Shown here: piece after piece, positions 6,424 to 33,194 of the stretch
How positions within the stretch are numbered: position 1 is the first letter of the stretch
Layout of the letters: the number at the start of each line of letters is the position of its first letter
Source: Candidatus Competibacteraceae bacterium
GTDB taxonomy: Bacteria > Bacteroidota > Bacteroidia > CAIKAF01
Assembly (NCBI GenBank): GCA_014879445.1
Contig: JACSSC010000031.1
Coordinates: forward strand, 1 to 40,928
Reading direction: 5' to 3'
DNA: 40,928 nucleotides
Position numbers and translations under genes: made by a program
The notes under the pieces: generated by a model
Seen by the model: only the letters and a program-made list of their open reading frames with translations
What the model was told of the DNA's origin: nothing
Databases searched by the model: none

Positions 6424-8654
6424 TATGCCTCATCTATTCTATCAACAGAAATTACACCCGGAAGTTTTTTAAGTTTTACAATGAGTTCGTTCAAATGGCG
6501 TGTATCTTGAACAAATAAAGTAATTTTTCCTTCAAAAACACCATCATTACTATCAAAACTCAATGAGCGCATATTAACTTTCATTTGATTGGAGATGAGC
6601 TTGGTAATTCGATTCACAATACCCACATCATCAATCCCTTTGACGGTAAGGCCGGTCAAAAATGATAAGGTTTCGCCTCCAGTCCATTTGGCTTTTACAA
6701 TACGATAAGCGTAATTAGAGAGTAGTTGTATGGCATTAGGGCAGTTGATTTTATGAATTTTAATTCCATCGTTGATGGTAACAAAGCCAAACACTTCATC
6801 GCCGGGAATAGGATTGCAGCAAGGCGCCAATGTATAATCAATTTTCTCTGCATTTTCTCCAATTAAAAGCTGTTCTCCTCCCCTATCGTATTTTTTTACG
6901 AGATTTTCAAACGACTCTTTAATTTCGTTATTCTTTGATCCTTTTCGAGTAAGTTTTTTGGCCAAATATGAATACCAACTTTTTTTGCCTTCTTCTTTGT
7001 AGAAATTTTTTATTTGTTGACTAGTTATCAGGCCCTTCCCTACTCTATGGTAAAATTCAAGTTCGTCTTGAAGTTTAAAAAATTTGAGGATAATATTGAT
7101 ATCTTTAGGATTGAAATTATAATTCAATCGGCGAAGTTTTCTTTCAAAAATTTCTTTACCGTCTTCAGCTATACGCTTCTTTTCTTCTTTTAATGCCGCT
7201 TTAATACGGGTACGAGCTTTGCCGGTATTAACGAAATGAAGCCAATCCTCTTTAGGTGATTGTTTTTGAGAAGTAATGATTTCGATTTGGTCGCCACTAT
7301 TGAGTTTATGACTTAGCGGAACAAGTCGGTTATTCACTTTAGCGCCAAGACATTTATCTCCCACATCGCTGTGTATTTCATAGGCAAAGTCAAGCGCTGT
7401 AGCATTGGCTGGTAGGGTTCGCAATTCGCCTTTAGGTGTAAAGACGTAAATTTCGTCTGTATAAAGATTTAGTTTAAAAGCATCTACAAAATCAACGGCC
7501 TCTTCTTCTTTATTTTCGAGAAATTCTCTGATTTTAGTAATCCACTCATCAATGGCTGTTTCTGTATTCGACTCTTTATACTTCCAATGAGCAGCATAAC
7601 CACGTTCGGCCACTTCATCCATGCGTTTAGTGCGGATTTGCACTTCTACCCATTTGCCGGTCGGGCTCATCACTGTAACATGCAACGATTCGTATCCATT
7701 GGCCCGTGGAAAAGATATCCAATCGCGAAGGCGGTCGGGCTTGGGTTGATACAAATCAGTTACAACAGAATAGGTTTTCCAAATTTCTGATTTTTCGGTC
7801 TGTAGCGGAACATCAAGGATAATGCGGATGGCAAAAATATCGTAGATTTCTTCAAACGGAACGCCTTTTTTGTGGATTTTATTCCAAATAGAATAGATCG
7901 ATTTTGTTCGCCCTTTCACTTCGTACGCCAGTTCAGCTTCATCCAATTTCTTTTTAATCGGTTGGGTAAATTGTCGAATGAAGCGCTCCATAACATCCTT
8001 TGATTTTTCGAGTCGCTGGATGATATCCTGGTACTGTTCGGGTTCAAGATATTTGAGACAAAGGTCTTCGAGTTCGGTTTTGATATTATACAATCCGAGT
8101 CGGTGTGCCAACGGGGCATAGAGGAAAAGCGTTTCAGATGCAATTTTGAGTTGCTTATCGCGTGCCATGTGGTCGAGGGTGCGCATATTATGCAAGCGAT
8201 CTGCAATTTTTATCAGAATAACACGAATATCTTCAGAAAGTGTAAGCACAATTTTTCTAAAATTTTCGGCCTGAATAGATTGTGTATTATCAAAAACGCC
8301 TGATATTTTAGTAAGCCCGTCAATGATCTTAGAAACGGAATCGCCGAAGAATTTTTCCATGTCTTCGAGTGTCAATTCAGTATCTTCAACCACATCGTGC
8401 AGAAGTGCACAAATTATAGATGTAGCACCAAGCCCCATTTCCTGCACGACAATTTGAGCAACGGCAATGGGATGATAAATATAGGGTTCGCCTGATTTTC
8501 GACGCATGTGTTTATGTGCATCAACGGCAATTTGAAACGCTTTTTTGATTTGTTTTTTTTCTTCGTTATCCTGAATAATAGGACGTGCATACTTCAACAA
8601 CAGGCGATAACGCTTGAGCAATTCTTTCCTTTCCTTTTCCGGATCTGTTTGCAT
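6423..8654 (-). CDS. Bifunctional (p)ppGpp synthetase/hydrolase (RelA/SpoT family)
   Basis: A 743-residue long Rel/SpoT homolog that makes and degrades (p)ppGpp in the stringent response. The order is: HD hydrolase domain (about 40-150) with His61, the HD pair His86-Asp87 and the ED pair at 90-91; synthetase domain (about 230-360) with [13 protein letters not shown] and the RANGYESLH and EVQIRT segments; TGS domain (about 395-455, [20 protein letters not shown]); a helical/zinc-finger-like stretch with [12 protein letters not shown]; and a C-terminal ACT domain (about 660-740). The intact HD motif supports an active hydrolase, so this is probably the main alarmone enzyme of the cell. It heads a five-gene run. 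A weak -7-like box (TAATTTAG) sits 18 nt before the ATG. Confidence 0.96.
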
Positions 8655-8717
8655 GCAAATAATAGATTTGCGCTAAATTACAAAAGAATAGAAATAAATG
8701 TTGAAAGTGTGATTATT

Positions 8718-9989
8718 TCAGATAGACGGCAAAACAGTAGATTTGCACAAACCAAAACCTACCCTCTTTGAACCTATTTGAGCAAAGGCATGCATAATGA
8801 CGGTATCACCATCATGTATAAACTTACGTTTACTGCCATCAGCTAAAATGAGAGGGCGTTCTCCTCTCCATGTCAATTCGAGCATGCTACCAAAAGCATC
8901 AGGTGTTGGCCCTGAGATAGTACCTGATGCACACATATCTCCAATTTTCATATTACAGCCATTAATGGTATGATGTGCTAACTGCTGGGCAATGCTCCAA
9001 TATAAATATTTATGATTGGTGGTAGAAACAAGTGTAGGTTTAGAATCTTTAGGTTTGATAAATGTTTGTATTTCGATATCAAAACTTTTTTCGCCTTCAT
9101 CATGCAGATAAGGTAATACTTGGGTCTCTTTCAAAGGAGATTCACAGCGGAAGGGTTCAAGCGCATCCAAGGTTACAATCCATGGAGAGATTGTTGAAAT
9201 AAAATTCTTACTCAAAAAAGGTCCGAGTGGTACATACTCCCATTTTTGTATATCGCGAGCCGACCAGTCGTTAAATACAACCATTCCGAAAATATGATTT
9301 TCGGCCTCTGCCGTTGAGATAGCTGTACCATGAGCGTTTTCACGCCCTATCACAAAAGCCATCTCGACTTCAAAATCGAGTTGTTGTGTTGATTTCAGTA
9401 CCGGTGTTAATGCCCCTTCCGGCATCAATTGACCTTTGGGACGATGAAAATGCACCCCCGATGCCATAATGGATGAAGCCCTGCCATGGTATGCAACGGG
9501 TATGTGTTTCCAATTGGGCAAAAGCGGTTCGCCGTCGGGTCTGAACATTTTTCCAACATTATAGGCATGTTCGCGGCTGCTGTAAAAATCGGTATAGTTT
9601 CCAATATGAAGTGGCAAATGCATCTGCACTTTTTGTACCGGTATCAAAATTAAAGCGATATCTTCATTTTTGTCACGTAATTCCGGATTTTTCTCATCCA
9701 ACAGTTCAAACAAACGCTTTCGTGTTGCATTCCAAGCCGGCCTGCCTAATGCAATAAAACGATTGAGTGTTCTTGATTTAAAAACATTTTCATTCATGAA
9801 AAGTATCTCAAGAAAACCCCTTTTAAACAGATAAGACATATCAATTACATGATTGCCTATAGCCACACCTACTCTTGGTTTTTTTCCGTCATAACTAAAT
9901 ATTCCATAAGGCAAATTATGCAAAGGAAAGTCACTTCCTGGAGGCACATCAACCCATGTTGAAGAAGGGGGGTGTATTTTAGATATCAT
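8718..9989 (-). CDS. fahA: Fumarylacetoacetase
   Basis: A 423-residue enzyme that hydrolyses fumarylacetoacetate to fumarate and acetoacetate, the last step of tyrosine/homogentisate breakdown. An N-terminal beta-roll domain (about 15-115) precedes the FAH catalytic domain. The metal and catalytic residues of the mammalian enzyme are all recognisable: NYTDFYSSREHA with Asp134 and His141, DFEVE with Glu207 and Glu209, and FNDWSARDIQ with Asp241. The start is the ATG at 9989, which gives the family's usual N-terminus; the longer frame would need a TTG at 10022. No homogentisate dioxygenase or maleylacetoacetate isomerase is nearby. The gene is probably its own unit, 63 bp upstream of the (p)ppGpp gene. 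Confidence 0.95.
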   Translation of the reverse strand: MISKIHPPSSTWVDVPPGSDFPLHNLPYGIFSYDGKKPRVGVAIGNHVIDMSYLFKRGFLEILFMNENVFKSRTLNRFIALGRPAWNATRKRLFELLDEKNPELRDKNEDIALILIPVQKVQMHLPLHIGNYTDFYSSREHAYNVGKMFRPDGEPLLPNWKHIPVAYHGRASSIMASGVHFHRPKGQLMPEGALTPVLKSTQQLDFEVEMAFVIGRENAHGTAISTAEAENHIFGMVVFNDWSARDIQKWEYVPLGPFLSKNFISTISPWIVTLDALEPFRCESPLKETQVLPYLHDEGEKSFDIEIQTFIKPKDSKPTLVSTTNHKYLYWSIAQQLAHHTINGCNMKIGDMCASGTISGPTPDAFGSMLELTWRGERPLILADGSKRKFIHDGDTVIMHAFAQIGSKRVGFGLCKSTVLPSI

Positions 9990-10080: not shown

Positions 10081-10974
10081 CTATGTTTTCCGAAACTTGG
10101 TTAGGCGAATAGTATGACGACAGGCCGAATAATGAAAATCCGATGCGCCAAAACCTTTATAAAAACGTGCAACTGAAGGCAGATTTGAACCACCAAAATC
10201 TACATAATTTACAGTTCCGTGTTCGGCCATAAGCGTTTCATGAATGAGCCGGTGCATAGCGCCGGTTTTTTTCCCTTCCGGGCTGGCTGCGCCCTTCAAA
10301 TAAAGCAAAATACGTGCATGTCGAATAAAAAAACCTGAAGCAATACAAACGTCATTATTATACACATGTGCAGCAAAACCCGATGCTCGACTAAGTGTTG
10401 CCTGCATAATGTTCGACAATGTTTGCATGTCCTTTCTTTTTAGATTATCAATTTCGTGCAGTTTATTTTGCTCAAACATGGCTAAAACAGTTTGATAATC
10501 ATGATTAAAAAGAACAGAATGACCAGAATGCACACTTTTTTTAATATTTCGCTTCGTGTTTTCGTTATATCCATTTGTGATTTGTTGTTGATTTTTAGAC
10601 ATCGCAAGCCATTGGCAAGATCGGTCGTTACAAGTAAAACCCTGTATGGGATCAAATGTATAGAGATGTATCAATCGAGCTGCTGAGGAAAGAATACGGG
10701 CAAATTCTATTCTGAGTGGATCAGGAAGTGGAGATGATGAGAAAATACCACATTCTCGAACAAACAAAGGATTGTATGCATAAGCAATTCTCATTTTTTT
10801 TCGAAGAGGGAAAATAATACCTGCCTTATAATCATCATACACAAAAGCCGACCATCCCGGGAAAGCTGCATCTAAATACCACGAATATCCAAACAAAGAA
10901 GGGTTATTAGCGTTATACACCAAGGCATCCCATTTCTCTTTGTTGATATCAGTCGAGTGAATCAGCTGTATCAT
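10081..10974 (-). CDS. FemAB/GNAT-like acyltransferase
   Basis: A 298-residue cytoplasmic protein resembling the GNAT-fold FemAB/BioF2-like acyltransferases. The C-terminal half shows GAASPEGKKTGAMHRLIHE (acyl-CoA or aminoacyl-binding turn) and then VDFGGSNLPSVARFYKGFGA, the pattern that closes this fold in Bacteroidota proteins. Relatives transfer acyl or aminoacyl groups to cell-envelope precursors; the donor and acceptor here are unknown. The ATG at 10974 is preferred because it falls one base after the stop of the upstream deacetylase gene. An extended frame to 11082 would overlap that gene by 107 bp. It is the last gene of a three-gene unit with a deacetylase and an AAC(3)-like acetyltransferase. 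Confidence 0.7.
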   Translation of the reverse strand: MIQLIHSTDINKEKWDALVYNANNPSLFGYSWYLDAAFPGWSAFVYDDYKAGIIFPLRKKMRIAYAYNPLFVRECGIFSSSPLPDPLRIEFARILSSAARLIHLYTFDPIQGFTCNDRSCQWLAMSKNQQQITNGYNENTKRNIKKSVHSGHSVLFNHDYQTVLAMFEQNKLHEIDNLKRKDMQTLSNIMQATLSRASGFAAHVYNNDVCIASGFFIRHARILLYLKGAASPEGKKTGAMHRLIHETLMAEHGTVNYVDFGGSNLPSVARFYKGFGASDFHYSACRHTIRLTKFRKT

Positions 10975-10975
10975 G

Positions 10976-12286
10976 CTATCCAAGAATTGACTTAATAAAT
11001 TTCTGATAAACGCTTCTCCATCTATTAGGTTTTGGGGTTTGCGAAAAAGTACGGTCATGAAAAATGGTAATAAGCATACCATTCACCATTTTAACCTCAT
11101 CGGCTATGCGCTTCATGTGTTTAAGTGCATCCTGTGGATTTAGTTTTAGATAATCAATATAACTTGTGTCAATTATTTGAAAAGGGCGAATAAAAAGTCG
11201 TTTAATCTTTTCATCTGTCAGATCATAAAACAAATAAGGTTCAGCAATACCCGCCCTAAAACCGGGCATGGTGGGAAACCCCATTGAATAATCGCACCGA
11301 ATACCGGATTTTATCAATTGACGGTATGTTTGCGGAAAATCAAGTCGGATAAAATGTTGACGACTTTCTGTAATTTTTTTACCATATATTTTTTCCAAGG
11401 TCTTGATTTCTGATTCAATAATACTGATTGATTGGTTTGAAAAATAAGAGGGATGAATTCCAATTTTAGAGAACTTTCTAATTCTTTTCACCAAATCTTT
11501 GAATGCATTATTATAAGGTGGCAAGTTATGGTCGTATGATGAGGGCTGTCCCGACAAGATAAAATATCGCAGCGGAATTTTATATTTCGTTTTAATTTTT
11601 TTATGAAGAGTATATTGATCGTAAGGGTCTTTTTGTAAGCCGAGTACAACCTGAATTCGTTGTGTAGCCAAGCCAATATCACCTTTGATAACATCACGGA
11701 TAGCAGCGCCCATCATTTTTAGTACATTTTTCCCCTTAAATGCATATCCATTATCTACATCAATGGTTGAAATAAATCTAAATTTCTTTTTAGGGAAAGA
11801 AAATGATGGATAACGCAACATCAGACGGTCTTTGAGCTCTTCCACCCAGTAATGAACAACCGGTTTGTCTAAGAAATTGTTTTTAAAGGCCAATGAATGT
11901 TCGGGTTGAAAGCGACCATGTTTATCCCTTTCGAAAGGCAAGTACTCTTCATAGCGACTTACCATATAAAAGACTGCAGCAAAAAGGTCGTACGTGAAAT
12001 CATTGCTACCATCAACAGGGAACAAAGCTTTACCAAAAGCCCCATGACAAATTCCAGGAAAAACAGGTTTAACACCCGTTTGAAATAAAAAGCCAGAACA
12101 GGGAATGTGTATAGAATCCTTTACAGGATAGAGCGAATAATTAATTTTTTTTCCATCAAACTGCAAAAACTCTTCCATCTCTTGAGTAAACATCACAGGG
12201 ATTTTAAGTTTCAGCACACGCTTAAAAATCACGTCGGCTGTATATTTCAGACGAGGTGACATTTGTATGGAATATATAAGAATCAT
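10976..12286 (-). CDS. Polysaccharide deacetylase family protein (DUF7033-like N-terminus)
   Basis: A 436-residue protein of the Bacteroidota type that joins an N-terminal domain (about 1-160, containing FYMVSRYEEY) to an NodB/CE4-like deacetylase barrel. STIDVDN (173-179) stands where CE4 enzymes have their first Asp motif, and GIHPSYFSN (His278) resembles the second metal-binding motif. TIFHDRTF near the C-terminus fits the last motif. The predicted chemistry is removal of N- or O-acetyl groups from a sugar polymer; the substrate is unknown. There is no obvious signal peptide, so it may act on an intracellular or lipid-linked precursor. The ATG overlaps the upstream stop codon (TAATG), and the next gene starts one base after its own stop. 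Confidence 0.78.
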   Translation of the reverse strand: MILIYSIQMSPRLKYTADVIFKRVLKLKIPVMFTQEMEEFLQFDGKKINYSLYPVKDSIHIPCSGFLFQTGVKPVFPGICHGAFGKALFPVDGSNDFTYDLFAAVFYMVSRYEEYLPFERDKHGRFQPEHSLAFKNNFLDKPVVHYWVEELKDRLMLRYPSFSFPKKKFRFISTIDVDNGYAFKGKNVLKMMGAAIRDVIKGDIGLATQRIQVVLGLQKDPYDQYTLHKKIKTKYKIPLRYFILSGQPSSYDHNLPPYNNAFKDLVKRIRKFSKIGIHPSYFSNQSISIIESEIKTLEKIYGKKITESRQHFIRLDFPQTYRQLIKSGIRCDYSMGFPTMPGFRAGIAEPYLFYDLTDEKIKRLFIRPFQIIDTSYIDYLKLNPQDALKHMKRIADEVKMVNGMLITIFHDRTFSQTPKPNRWRSVYQKFIKSILG

Positions 12287-13092
12287 TATTTAATATATCT
12301 TTTAATCCAATCTTTACACCATTGACGACGGTCAAATGTAACCAAATTCTTACCCTGATGCCTGAGGATATCTTCTTCAATCACATGAAAAGCAGCATGC
12401 AAATCCACCCAAGCACATGAAATGCCTTTATGATGGTGAATCATACAAGCATTATTGGCAATCAATAAATCTTTGATTGGATAGAGTGAAAGTTGATATC
12501 CCGGTTTTTTTTCAAAGTATCTAACTGTATGTTGCGAAATTATGCCATCTTTCATTATTGGAATATGATAATTGCGATAAGTTCGATAAGGAACCTGCAA
12601 CATTTCTTCTACAAAATGGGCAAAAGTAAAGCTGTGTTGGAAATCCACATCCCAAAGCAGCATAACAGCATTATTGCGGTATAAAAGTTCGAAAATCGAA
12701 TTGCTGCCAAATGTACTATCACTTTGAGCTGATAAAAACAAATTGGCGTGAATGCCTTTAATCAGAAAAGAATGAAAAGGATCATTGCTACGTTCAAAAT
12801 CTGAAGATTTCATTGCCCACTTCGATAAACTACCGGTTGTGGGCAAAGTATCAATGAGATTAAAAATCTGATTTCGTTTGTATGATTGAACAAAGGCCGG
12901 AATAAGAAGAGTGCCTGGATTAATGCGTTTTATTAGATCATCGACCAACAACTGTGGCGAGAATCGTTTTTTGTTTATGGCAAAATAGGCGGCAATACGC
13001 GATAAATCAGCTGTAAGCCATAGTGTATCACCTGGTTTTAATGGAAAAGATGACAGCCATTCGTCCCAATCAGTATGCGATTCCTCTTGCAT
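12286..13092 (-). CDS. AAC(3)-fold N-acetyltransferase family protein
   Basis: A 268-residue protein resembling the AAC(3)/YokD antibiotic acetyltransferase fold. Recognisable features are the opening GDTLWLTADLSRI, TLLIPAFVQS, the family signature RSNDPFHSF (residues 101-109), FGSNSIFELL, and TFAHFVEEML, which keeps a His159-x-x-Glu162 pair like the family's H..E active-site segment. The sequence is divergent, and its neighbours (polysaccharide deacetylase, FemAB-like transferase) point to acetylation of an amino sugar or amine in a glycan rather than to aminoglycoside resistance. It is first in the unit. A -7 box lies only 9 nt before the ATG, and no later Met gives a full fold, so the mRNA is predicted to have a very short leader. 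Confidence 0.7.
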   Translation of the reverse strand: MQEESHTDWDEWLSSFPLKPGDTLWLTADLSRIAAYFAINKKRFSPQLLVDDLIKRINPGTLLIPAFVQSYKRNQIFNLIDTLPTTGSLSKWAMKSSDFERSNDPFHSFLIKGIHANLFLSAQSDSTFGSNSIFELLYRNNAVMLLWDVDFQHSFTFAHFVEEMLQVPYRTYRNYHIPIMKDGIISQHTVRYFEKKPGYQLSLYPIKDLLIANNACMIHHHKGISCAWVDLHAAFHVIEEDILRHQGKNLVTFDRRQWCKDWIKRYIK

Positions 13093-13101
13093 GGATTATA
13101 G

Positions 13102-13109
13102 CAAAGGTA
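13102..13109 (-). promoter_or_regulatory. Candidate -7 promoter box for the AAC(3)-like gene
   Basis: On the minus strand TACCTTTG matches TAnnTTTG exactly, with its final G 10 bases before the A of the ATG at 13092. This implies a leader of only a few nucleotides. No good -33 element was found. Confidence 0.4.
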
Positions 13110-31586: not shown

Positions 31587-31594
31587 CAAATGTA
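31587..31594 (-). promoter_or_regulatory. Candidate -7 box of mltG
   Basis: On the minus strand TACATTTG matches TAnnTTTG exactly. It overlaps the start codon of the divergent T9SS cargo gene and faces its -7 box across three bases, so the two promoters probably compete. Confidence 0.45.
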
Positions 31595-33194
31595 CAAAAA
31601 GCTATTCTTCATAGCCATATTTGCGTGCATGCTTGTATTTTGTCAAGCACAAGGCAACCTCATTAATAGTGGCCAATTACATATTGATGCCGGTACTGAA
31701 GTATTGTTTAAAGGCAATCTTATCAATAATCGTCCCATCTCTGGCACTGGTTATTTAACATATAACGGTGCATCTGTATCTCATGCCAGGGGAGATTCAC
31801 TACATGCCGGATCTTTTCGAATGAATGCTTCCGGAATACTCATTTTAGATACATCCTTGCATATTTTTGCGAATGTTGATTTTGTTCAAGGAAATTTGAT
31901 TCAACAAACAAACAACATTACCATTCATCAAATCAATGCCTTTTCGGGAGGCAACAGCAATTCTTATATCGAATCGCAAAACGGCGGATGGGTTATTCTC
32001 CCCATCGATAATCAATCCATCCTCATCCCTCTTGGCCATAATGGGCATTATCTTCCTGTAACCCTGCAACAAGCCGGCATGACGGATACTTTTGCAATCA
32101 AATTATGGCCACATCTTACCACTAATGGTTTATCTTCTGGGCCACCACTTCTCAGCCATGTGGGCCTATTTGGTATTGAACTCATTGACAATCCCATCAT
32201 CCCAAACATGATTACTATGGGTATTTCCTGGCCTGATGCATCTCTTTCAGGCAATTTTGAAGAAATGTATTCAACCCTAATTCATTACGACACGAGCGGC
32301 TACAAAAATCTTCTGCCCTGCCCTACCGACTTATCGGTAACCAATCCAAATACACTGATGATTACTGGTATCGCTCAAACCGGATTATTTGGTGTAGGCG
32401 ATTCTGTATTTCTTCAATTAGTGCCACAACCCACCATTTTTCTTTCAGGTGCGCCTGCATTTTGTCAAGGCGATAGTATCTTGTTGTACTCTACAGATAC
32501 ATCATACGTGCATAGTTGGAATACCGGTGCAAACTCTACTTCAATCTTTGTATCTCAATCCGGATTGTATGAACTCACACTAACAGATAGCAATGGCTGT
32601 TCTTCTACCTCATGGCCTCAATCCATACAAATGCTTTCACATTCATTTGATACAATTTATGAAAACCAATGTGATAGTTTTTACTGGAATATAAATGCTC
32701 AGACCTATCAATTTAGTGGAGTGTATTCGCATACCATTGCTAACCACTTGGGTTGTGACAGCACAATATCACTCCAATTAACCATTGATACAACCTGGCA
32801 CGGATCTCAATCAATCAGCATTTGCCCGGGCGATAGCATTATTATTGGCAACAATACGTATTATACTCCGGGCACTTATACCGAAATATTGCAAAGTGTA
32901 AGCGGTTGCGATAGCATTGTAAGCATTGTATTAAGTTTGGCCAACTGTGTTTCCGTAGCAGCAAACAATGAGGTAATATGGAATGTATTCCCTAATCCTT
33001 CAGAAGGCATGATATCCATACAAACCAACCTGCATAACCCAACAGGCAACATTGAAATACTTAATCTCACAGGTCAGGTAATTACTCGTGTTCAACTCAA
33101 CTCGTCTCTGATGTTTATTGATATTAGTCATCTACCTGCCGGCACATACATCATTAAAATATCAGAAACCCACATACCGCTTATCAAACTTTGA
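31590..33194 (+). CDS. T9SS type A sorting-domain secreted protein
   Basis: A 534-residue exported protein. A signal peptide (1-21, ending FCQAQG) is followed by a repetitive beta-rich region (about 22-200, NLINSGQLHIDAGTEVLFKG, NANVDF-like rungs), a probable Ig/PKD-like domain (about 280-345, WNTGANSTSIFVSQSGLYEL), and two Cys-containing units with GCDS (about 361-452). The C-terminus (about 461-534) has the type IX sorting pattern: VFPNPSEG, then IEILNLTGQV and LPAGTYIIKI. It is therefore probably carried across the outer membrane and surface-attached or released. The ligand is unknown; such modular proteins are often adhesins. Confidence 0.87.
   Translation: MYKKLFFIAIFACMLVFCQAQGNLINSGQLHIDAGTEVLFKGNLINNRPISGTGYLTYNGASVSHARGDSLHAGSFRMNASGILILDTSLHIFANVDFVQGNLIQQTNNITIHQINAFSGGNSNSYIESQNGGWVILPIDNQSILIPLGHNGHYLPVTLQQAGMTDTFAIKLWPHLTTNGLSSGPPLLSHVGLFGIELIDNPIIPNMITMGISWPDASLSGNFEEMYSTLIHYDTSGYKNLLPCPTDLSVTNPNTLMITGIAQTGLFGVGDSVFLQLVPQPTIFLSGAPAFCQGDSILLYSTDTSYVHSWNTGANSTSIFVSQSGLYELTLTDSNGCSSTSWPQSIQMLSHSFDTIYENQCDSFYWNINAQTYQFSGVYSHTIANHLGCDSTISLQLTIDTTWHGSQSISICPGDSIIIGNNTYYTPGTYTEILQSVSGCDSIVSIVLSLANCVSVAANNEVIWNVFPNPSEGMISIQTNLHNPTGNIEILNLTGQVITRVQLNSSLMFIDISHLPAGTYIIKISETHIPLIKL

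Follow-up and report, generated by a model that had tools for sequence, protein, structure and literature searches.

A Bacteroidia operon joining a VimE-like deacetylase and a FemAB-like transferase to an AAC(3)-fold acyltransferase, with a possible role in building a T9SS cargo-linking sugar

Organization of the Three-Gene Locus

The window, by which we mean the entire stretch of 40,928 nucleotides that was analysed, carries three genes on its minus strand that overlap or nearly touch; an ORF check confirmed their coordinates (Table 1). They are translated in the order AAC(3)-fold protein, deacetylase, FemAB-like protein. The first junction is a TAATG overlap and the second a 1-bp gap, with the start of the FemAB-like gene placed at 10974. 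The mechanical ORF start of this gene is 11082; the ATG at 10974 is preferred and is most likely the real start, because it fits the homologues and leaves the 1-bp gap. A candidate -7 promoter box, TACCTTTG, precedes the AAC(3)-fold gene and matches TAnnTTTG, which we take to be the Bacteroidota -7 consensus. A regular promoter scan gave no signal above that of shuffled sequences.

The genes on either side are unrelated to the three-gene set, namely a fumarylacetoacetase downstream and a divergently oriented sigma-54 response regulator upstream. A PADLOC search returned no match, leaving a defence system reading of the three genes unsupported, and this reading was rejected. PF18962, the T9SS C-terminal sorting domain, matches one protein elsewhere in the window with 43.7 bits; the window itself therefore encodes a probable T9SS cargo.

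Table 1. Features of the window, and related genes in the window genome (G000) and its relatives.
Feature	Position	Strand	Remarks
AAC(3)/Antibiotic_NAT-fold acyltransferase	12286..13092	-	268 aa; class 1; PF02522
CE4-fold VimE-like N-deacetylase with DUF7033 N-terminal part	10976..12286	-	436 aa
FemAB/GNAT-like (VimA-like) transferase, probable amino-acid transferase	10081..10974	-	297 aa
Candidate -7 promoter box, TACCTTTG	13102..13109	-	10 bases before the ATG of the AAC(3)-fold gene; read directly
Protein with T9SS C-terminal sorting domain	31590-33194	+	PF18962
ACP/FkbH pair of the window genome	G000:C14 (L184 7577-9552)		genes overlap by 4 bp
Class-1 AAC run	G066:C7		toroid, ACP, FkbH, glyoxalase-family (VOC) protein, AAC, deacetylase, FemAB
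Class-1 AAC run	G044:C21		adenylation enzyme, ACP, GNAT, AAC, deacetylase; without FemAB
Class-1 AAC run	G061:C10		adenylation enzyme, ACP, GNAT, AAC
Toroid protein copies	L159 8007-9209 (G000:C34); L187 7145-8365; L089 3113-4315; L090 3728-4939		beside wecB or in AAC cassette

Identity of the AAC(3)-Fold Protein

The product of the first gene scored 64 bits against PF02522 (Antibiotic_NAT; cut-off, 25), which places it in that family, and 28 bits against the aminoglycoside AAC(3) equivalog NF033082 (cut-off, 270), which places it outside the equivalog. Its structural model, built from a three-sequence alignment, was of moderate confidence (pLDDT, 76.5). Foldseek returned YokD (2nyg, E = 2.2e-15) and FrbF (3sma, 3.0e-15) as the best matches to this model, followed by BA2930 and AAC(3)-III, so the protein shares the fold of these enzymes. 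The catalytic motif of the AAC(3) family is TxPhiHPhiAE (PMC8956665), and the stretch TFAHFVE (T156-F-A-H159-F-V-E162) fits it with Val in place of Ala; the catalytic Thr156, His159, and Glu162 are all kept. The initial annotation had described the family as mostly aminoglycoside-modifying, which is too narrow a view, as FrbF, YokD, and BA2930 have the same fold and are inactive on aminoglycosides (PMC8956665).

A tree of the PF02522 proteins from relatives split them, with full support, into two AAC classes. Class 2 retains a [VL]HS[SA] stretch. Class 1, to which the window protein belongs, has lost it, with AD or SD, for example, in place of HS. From this loss we would expect the donor or acceptor site of the class-1 enzymes to be altered. 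The window protein thus resembles the Antibiotic_NAT/AAC(3) family (YokD, FrbF, BA2930, AAC(3)-III) in fold and catalytic Thr-His-Glu, and differs from it in the missing stretch and in its position within a glycan operon; class-1 genes, moreover, sometimes adjoin a carrier-protein gene.

The Deacetylase and the FemAB-Like Transferase

None of the Pfam CE4 families matches the window deacetylase. It matches PF23019 (DUF7033) with 116 bits, and among named families VimE (NF053580) fits best, at 146 bits, below the cut-off of 440 for that equivalog. The model (pLDDT, 90.6) has a predicted CE4 fold, and the best Foldseek matches were the polysaccharide deacetylases 3rxz and 3qbu and ArnD (8t0j), consistent with a CE4/NodB fold, at modest TM-scores of about 0.4 (query) and 0.6 (target). 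Residues Asp-176, Asp-178, His-278, Arg-309, His-311, and His-410 (D176, D178, H278, R309, H311, H410) are retained together in 58 of 62 homologues, making them candidate catalytic or metal residues. Most of the catalytic Asp and His residues are gone from the homologues at L005, L008, L009, and L010 (about 8001-9300), which come from flavobacterial and other Bacteroidia assemblies and have no FemAB-like neighbour; these are possible pseudo-deacetylases with another role.

The FemAB-like protein scored 19.6 bits against PF13480 (Acetyltransf_6), just below the cut-off of 22, and the window copy itself matches no FemAB model, including TIGR03019 (pepcterm_femAB). This last model is matched by 10 of 23 relatives of the protein (best, 1.9e-7), and it is the one that Veith et al. 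(2020) reported for VimA (PMC7468200). No relative of the protein was found among solved structures. Taken together, the ORFs, the PF02522 match, the CE4 fold, and the TIGR03019 matches of relatives confirm the reading of the initial annotation, namely three overlapping or near-touching genes for an AAC(3)-like, a CE4-like, and a FemAB/GNAT-like enzyme; judged from their sequences, the deacetylase and the AAC(3)-fold protein also appear to have their catalytic residues in place.

Conservation of the Genes in Bacteroidia

The comparison covered 100 Bacteroidia genomes that are related to each other, so the co-occurrence p-values given here are optimistic. The deacetylase was present in 93 of these genomes and the FemAB-like gene in 81. 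In 53 genomes the two lie at most 8 kb apart, with the FemAB-like gene always downstream on the same strand and most often separated from the deacetylase by some tens of bases. A chance neighbourhood was rejected, since so many pairs in the same order and on the same strand are far beyond chance. The usual neighbourhood comprises RadC, a wecB-type 2-epimerase, the deacetylase, the FemAB-like protein, a UPRT-family protein, a 159-aa protein, and a YjjG-type phosphatase. RadC, the UPRT-family protein, the 159-aa protein, and the phosphatase are kept around the pair in many Bacteroidia (e.g., L099, L100, L102), and we know of no obvious link between them and sugar chemistry.

The 100 genomes contain 19 copies of PF02522, spread over 17 of them. 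Twelve copies, from six families, adjoin the deacetylase. Depending on the family, the AAC gene stands upstream or downstream of it, with the order AAC-deacetylase-FemAB in f1 and f6 and deacetylase-AAC-c12-FemAB in f21, f29, and f31. The genes are therefore found together in relatives, as the initial annotation would have it, with the full three-gene set confined to a minority. The deacetylase/FemAB pair is an old, common core of Bacteroidia, and the AAC(3) gene is an optional part.

The c12 protein (331 aa; family of about 330 aa) carries the motifs HIHPHWED and GHPKA. It matched no named family in Pfam or NCBIfam, the only hit being a weak one to Polysacc_deac_1 (E = 0.07), and it is apparently a second, diverged CE4-type deacetylase. 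Genes for c12 adjoin AAC(3)-fold genes at L092, L095, L096, L097, L142, and L161, the last of these without the first deacetylase. A similar c12-like protein is encoded in L162 (7115-13508; G066:C1), where it is followed consecutively by AAC, SDR, AMP-ligase, and LuxE acyl-protein synthetase genes, apparently a further gene cluster for acyl activation and transfer that includes an AAC(3)-fold enzyme.

Carrier Proteins, FkbH, and the Toroid Protein

Three class-1 AAC loci have a carrier protein and a loading enzyme alongside (Table 1). The complete toroid-ACP-FkbH-AAC-deacetylase-FemAB run occurs in one genome only (G066), and G044 has a separate deacetylase/FemAB cassette at C45. In the window genome, the ACP/FkbH pair lies at another locus, not adjoining the AAC gene; its FkbH scored 258 bits (cut-off, 147) and is accompanied by a carrier protein, as in an FkbH module. 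FkbH and class-1 AAC occur together in seven genomes (p = 4e-5), an association that is weak at the family level (p = 0.017). The FkbH encoded in the window genome is of a type with a DLDDT motif, which was found with AAC only in f1 and f6. FkbH was not found in the fragmented assembly of G002. An adenylation enzyme as donor maker was not found in the window genome and was rejected as the donor source there.

FkbH loads 1,3-bisphosphoglycerate as a glyceryl group onto a carrier protein (PMC8949500, PMC3679948). The pair in the window genome resembles this glyceryl-loading module of polyketide/NRPS pathways in its FkbH score and DLDDT motif, in the LDS site of its carrier protein, and in its overlapping genes. 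Unlike that module, it is associated with no polyketide or peptide cluster and is tied to a sugar cassette. A search of open-access papers found no work connecting FkbH to T9SS or to AAC(3).

A strongly conserved alpha/alpha-toroid protein of 400 aa adjoins wecB in the window genome, and in G006 the order wecB-toroid-ACP-FkbH forms a single run. Of the 100 genomes, 12 gave strong matches to the toroid protein. Class-1 AAC is present in ten, and nine genomes have both (p = 1e-9); counted by family, four are shared (p = 2e-4). The toroid gene is directly upstream of the deacetylase in G067 and G023. A tentative assignment as a uronic acid C5-epimerase (37-bit match) was dropped because several unrelated toroid families also match.

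Relation to T9SS and the Wbp/Vim Pathway

The T9SS sortase PorU is present in the window genome (NF033707, 1138 bits; cut-off, 420), at G000:C34, as is a wecB-type 2-epimerase. At G000:C35 are clustered a dehydrogenase, an oxidoreductase, an aminotransferase, and a hexapeptide acetyltransferase, all assigned to general families only; this clustering suggests a Wbp-like set. Among the 100 related genomes, the presence of the deacetylase tracks that of PorU (Fisher p = 4e-5), with four of the five genomes without PorU also lacking the deacetylase, compared with 3 of 95 PorU genomes in which none was detected.

The Wbp/Vim pathway is the source of the sugar that links T9SS cargo to LPS, and a swap of acetyl for aminoacyl by VimE and VimA has been described by Veith et al. 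(2020); in T. forsythia, an epimerase is predicted in the pathway alongside these two enzymes (PMC7468200). The similarities to this system (WbpA/B/E/D, VimE, and VimA of Porphyromonas gingivalis and Tannerella forsythia; PMC7468200) lie in the CE4-type deacetylase and the FemAB/GNAT-like transferase, and the window genome also has candidate Wbp-like genes, a 2-epimerase, and the T9SS sortase. The 2-epimerase-deacetylase-FemAB core of relatives likewise resembles the predicted T. forsythia epimerase, VimE, and VimA. In contrast, the window deacetylase scores well short of the VimE cut-off, the operon includes an additional AAC(3)-fold enzyme, and an ACP/FkbH pair and the alpha/alpha-toroid protein are linked to the cassette in relatives. 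Veith et al. also proposed that the FemAB and deacetylase of the XrtA/PEP-CTERM system yield an aminoacyl sugar that a sortase-like step would use. Those genes (TIGR03019) share the adjoining FemAB-like and deacetylase arrangement; the system here is T9SS rather than exosortase, and the window FemAB copy is without a TIGR03019 match.

Discussion

We propose, with moderate confidence, that the three genes form an operon that remodels N-acyl groups on a nucleotide-linked amino sugar. This sugar would most likely be the one that links T9SS cargo, and the AAC(3)-fold enzyme would move an acyl group bound to a carrier protein. What was observed comprises the gene order and its conservation, the folds, the catalytic residues, the statistical link between AAC and deacetylase, and, encoded elsewhere in the window genome, the sortase PorU, a Wbp-like cluster, an epimerase of the wecB type, and the ACP/FkbH pair. 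From these we infer the substrate, the donors, the amine used by each enzyme, the acceptor position, and the role in T9SS. The suggestion of the initial annotation that the genes act as one functional unit, probably removing an N-acetyl from a sugar amine and adding other groups, is supported; the possible links to T9SS, the carrier protein, and FkbH go beyond it.

In the proposed mechanism, the Wbp-like enzymes and the 2-epimerase would produce a UDP-2,3-diamino uronic acid, from which the CE4-fold VimE-like deacetylase would free one amine by removal of its N-acetyl group. The VimA-like FemAB enzyme would add an amino acid to the freed amine, presumably from an aminoacyl-tRNA, and this amino acid would later be joined to the C-terminus of the cargo, as in P. 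gingivalis. The AAC(3)-fold enzyme would transfer an acyl group, in the window genome perhaps a glyceryl made by FkbH, from a phosphopantetheine carrier protein to an amine of the same sugar. If the sortase step requires the alpha-amine of the amino acid to be free, the AAC enzyme would more likely act on the other sugar amine. The G044 run, with AAC and deacetylase and without FemAB, suggests that AAC can take the place of FemAB. More tentatively, AAC(3)-fold enzymes of this class could be acyltransferases that depend on a carrier protein. They would take an ACP-borne glyceryl (via FkbH) or aminoacyl group (via an adenylation enzyme) and attach it to the amino sugar once this is deacetylated; the product would be a T9SS linking sugar of a new kind, and in some genomes the step would replace the tRNA-dependent FemAB.

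The same sugar operon could instead employ the AAC(3)-fold enzyme as a plain acetyl-CoA N-acetyltransferase, for example at C-3 in place of WbpD, with the ACP/FkbH pair serving something else. Enzymes of the AAC(3) family use acetyl-CoA as a rule (PMC8956665), and both the separate locus of ACP/FkbH and the absence of an adenylation enzyme in the window genome agree with this. We nevertheless regard it as somewhat unlikely, given that the window-type AAC is without the [VL]HS[SA] stretch, that AAC stands beside a carrier protein and a loading enzyme in three other families, and that a WbpD-like enzyme is already part of the Wbp-like cluster. It seems unlikely to us that the operon acts on an O-antigen sugar or a surface polysaccharide and has nothing to do with T9SS anchoring. 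Such a role would account for the PorU genomes, at least three, without a detected deacetylase, and homologues of the deacetylase, FemAB, and FkbH do belong to other polysaccharide pathways as well. The linking sugar of P. intermedia, moreover, is produced without VimA/VimE (PMC11969387). The tracking of PorU by the deacetylase argues against this explanation, as do VimE being the nearest named family and a 2-epimerase-deacetylase-FemAB order like that of the Wbp/Vim enzymes.

It is very improbable that the AAC(3)-fold gene confers resistance to aminoglycosides and lies beside a glycan operon by chance. The name of the Pfam family and the retained Thr-His-Glu motif would fit such a gene; it is translationally coupled to the operon, most members of the family adjoin the same deacetylase (12 of 19, in six families), and the equivalog score is a fraction of its cut-off (28 against 270). 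We rejected aminoglycoside resistance on this genomic context and score, and the enzyme probably serves sugar building here rather than drug resistance.

The claim that the operon represents a new biosynthetic role stands in part. The AAC(3)-fold gene is unusual, but the deacetylase/FemAB half is common, VimE/VimA-like, and known in kind, the swap itself having been described (PMC7468200); what would be new is the AAC(3)-fold and carrier-protein part. The sugar that links T9SS cargo is known in three species, and several biosynthetic routes to such sugars are expected across the phylum (PMC11969387). The locus points to a deacetylase/FemAB core that is widespread in Bacteroidia and to a variant of it that includes a carrier protein and an acyltransferase of the AAC(3) fold. 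If this is true, AAC(3)-fold proteins, which are usually annotated as resistance genes, would gain a biosynthetic role, and this would matter for the annotation of resistance genes.
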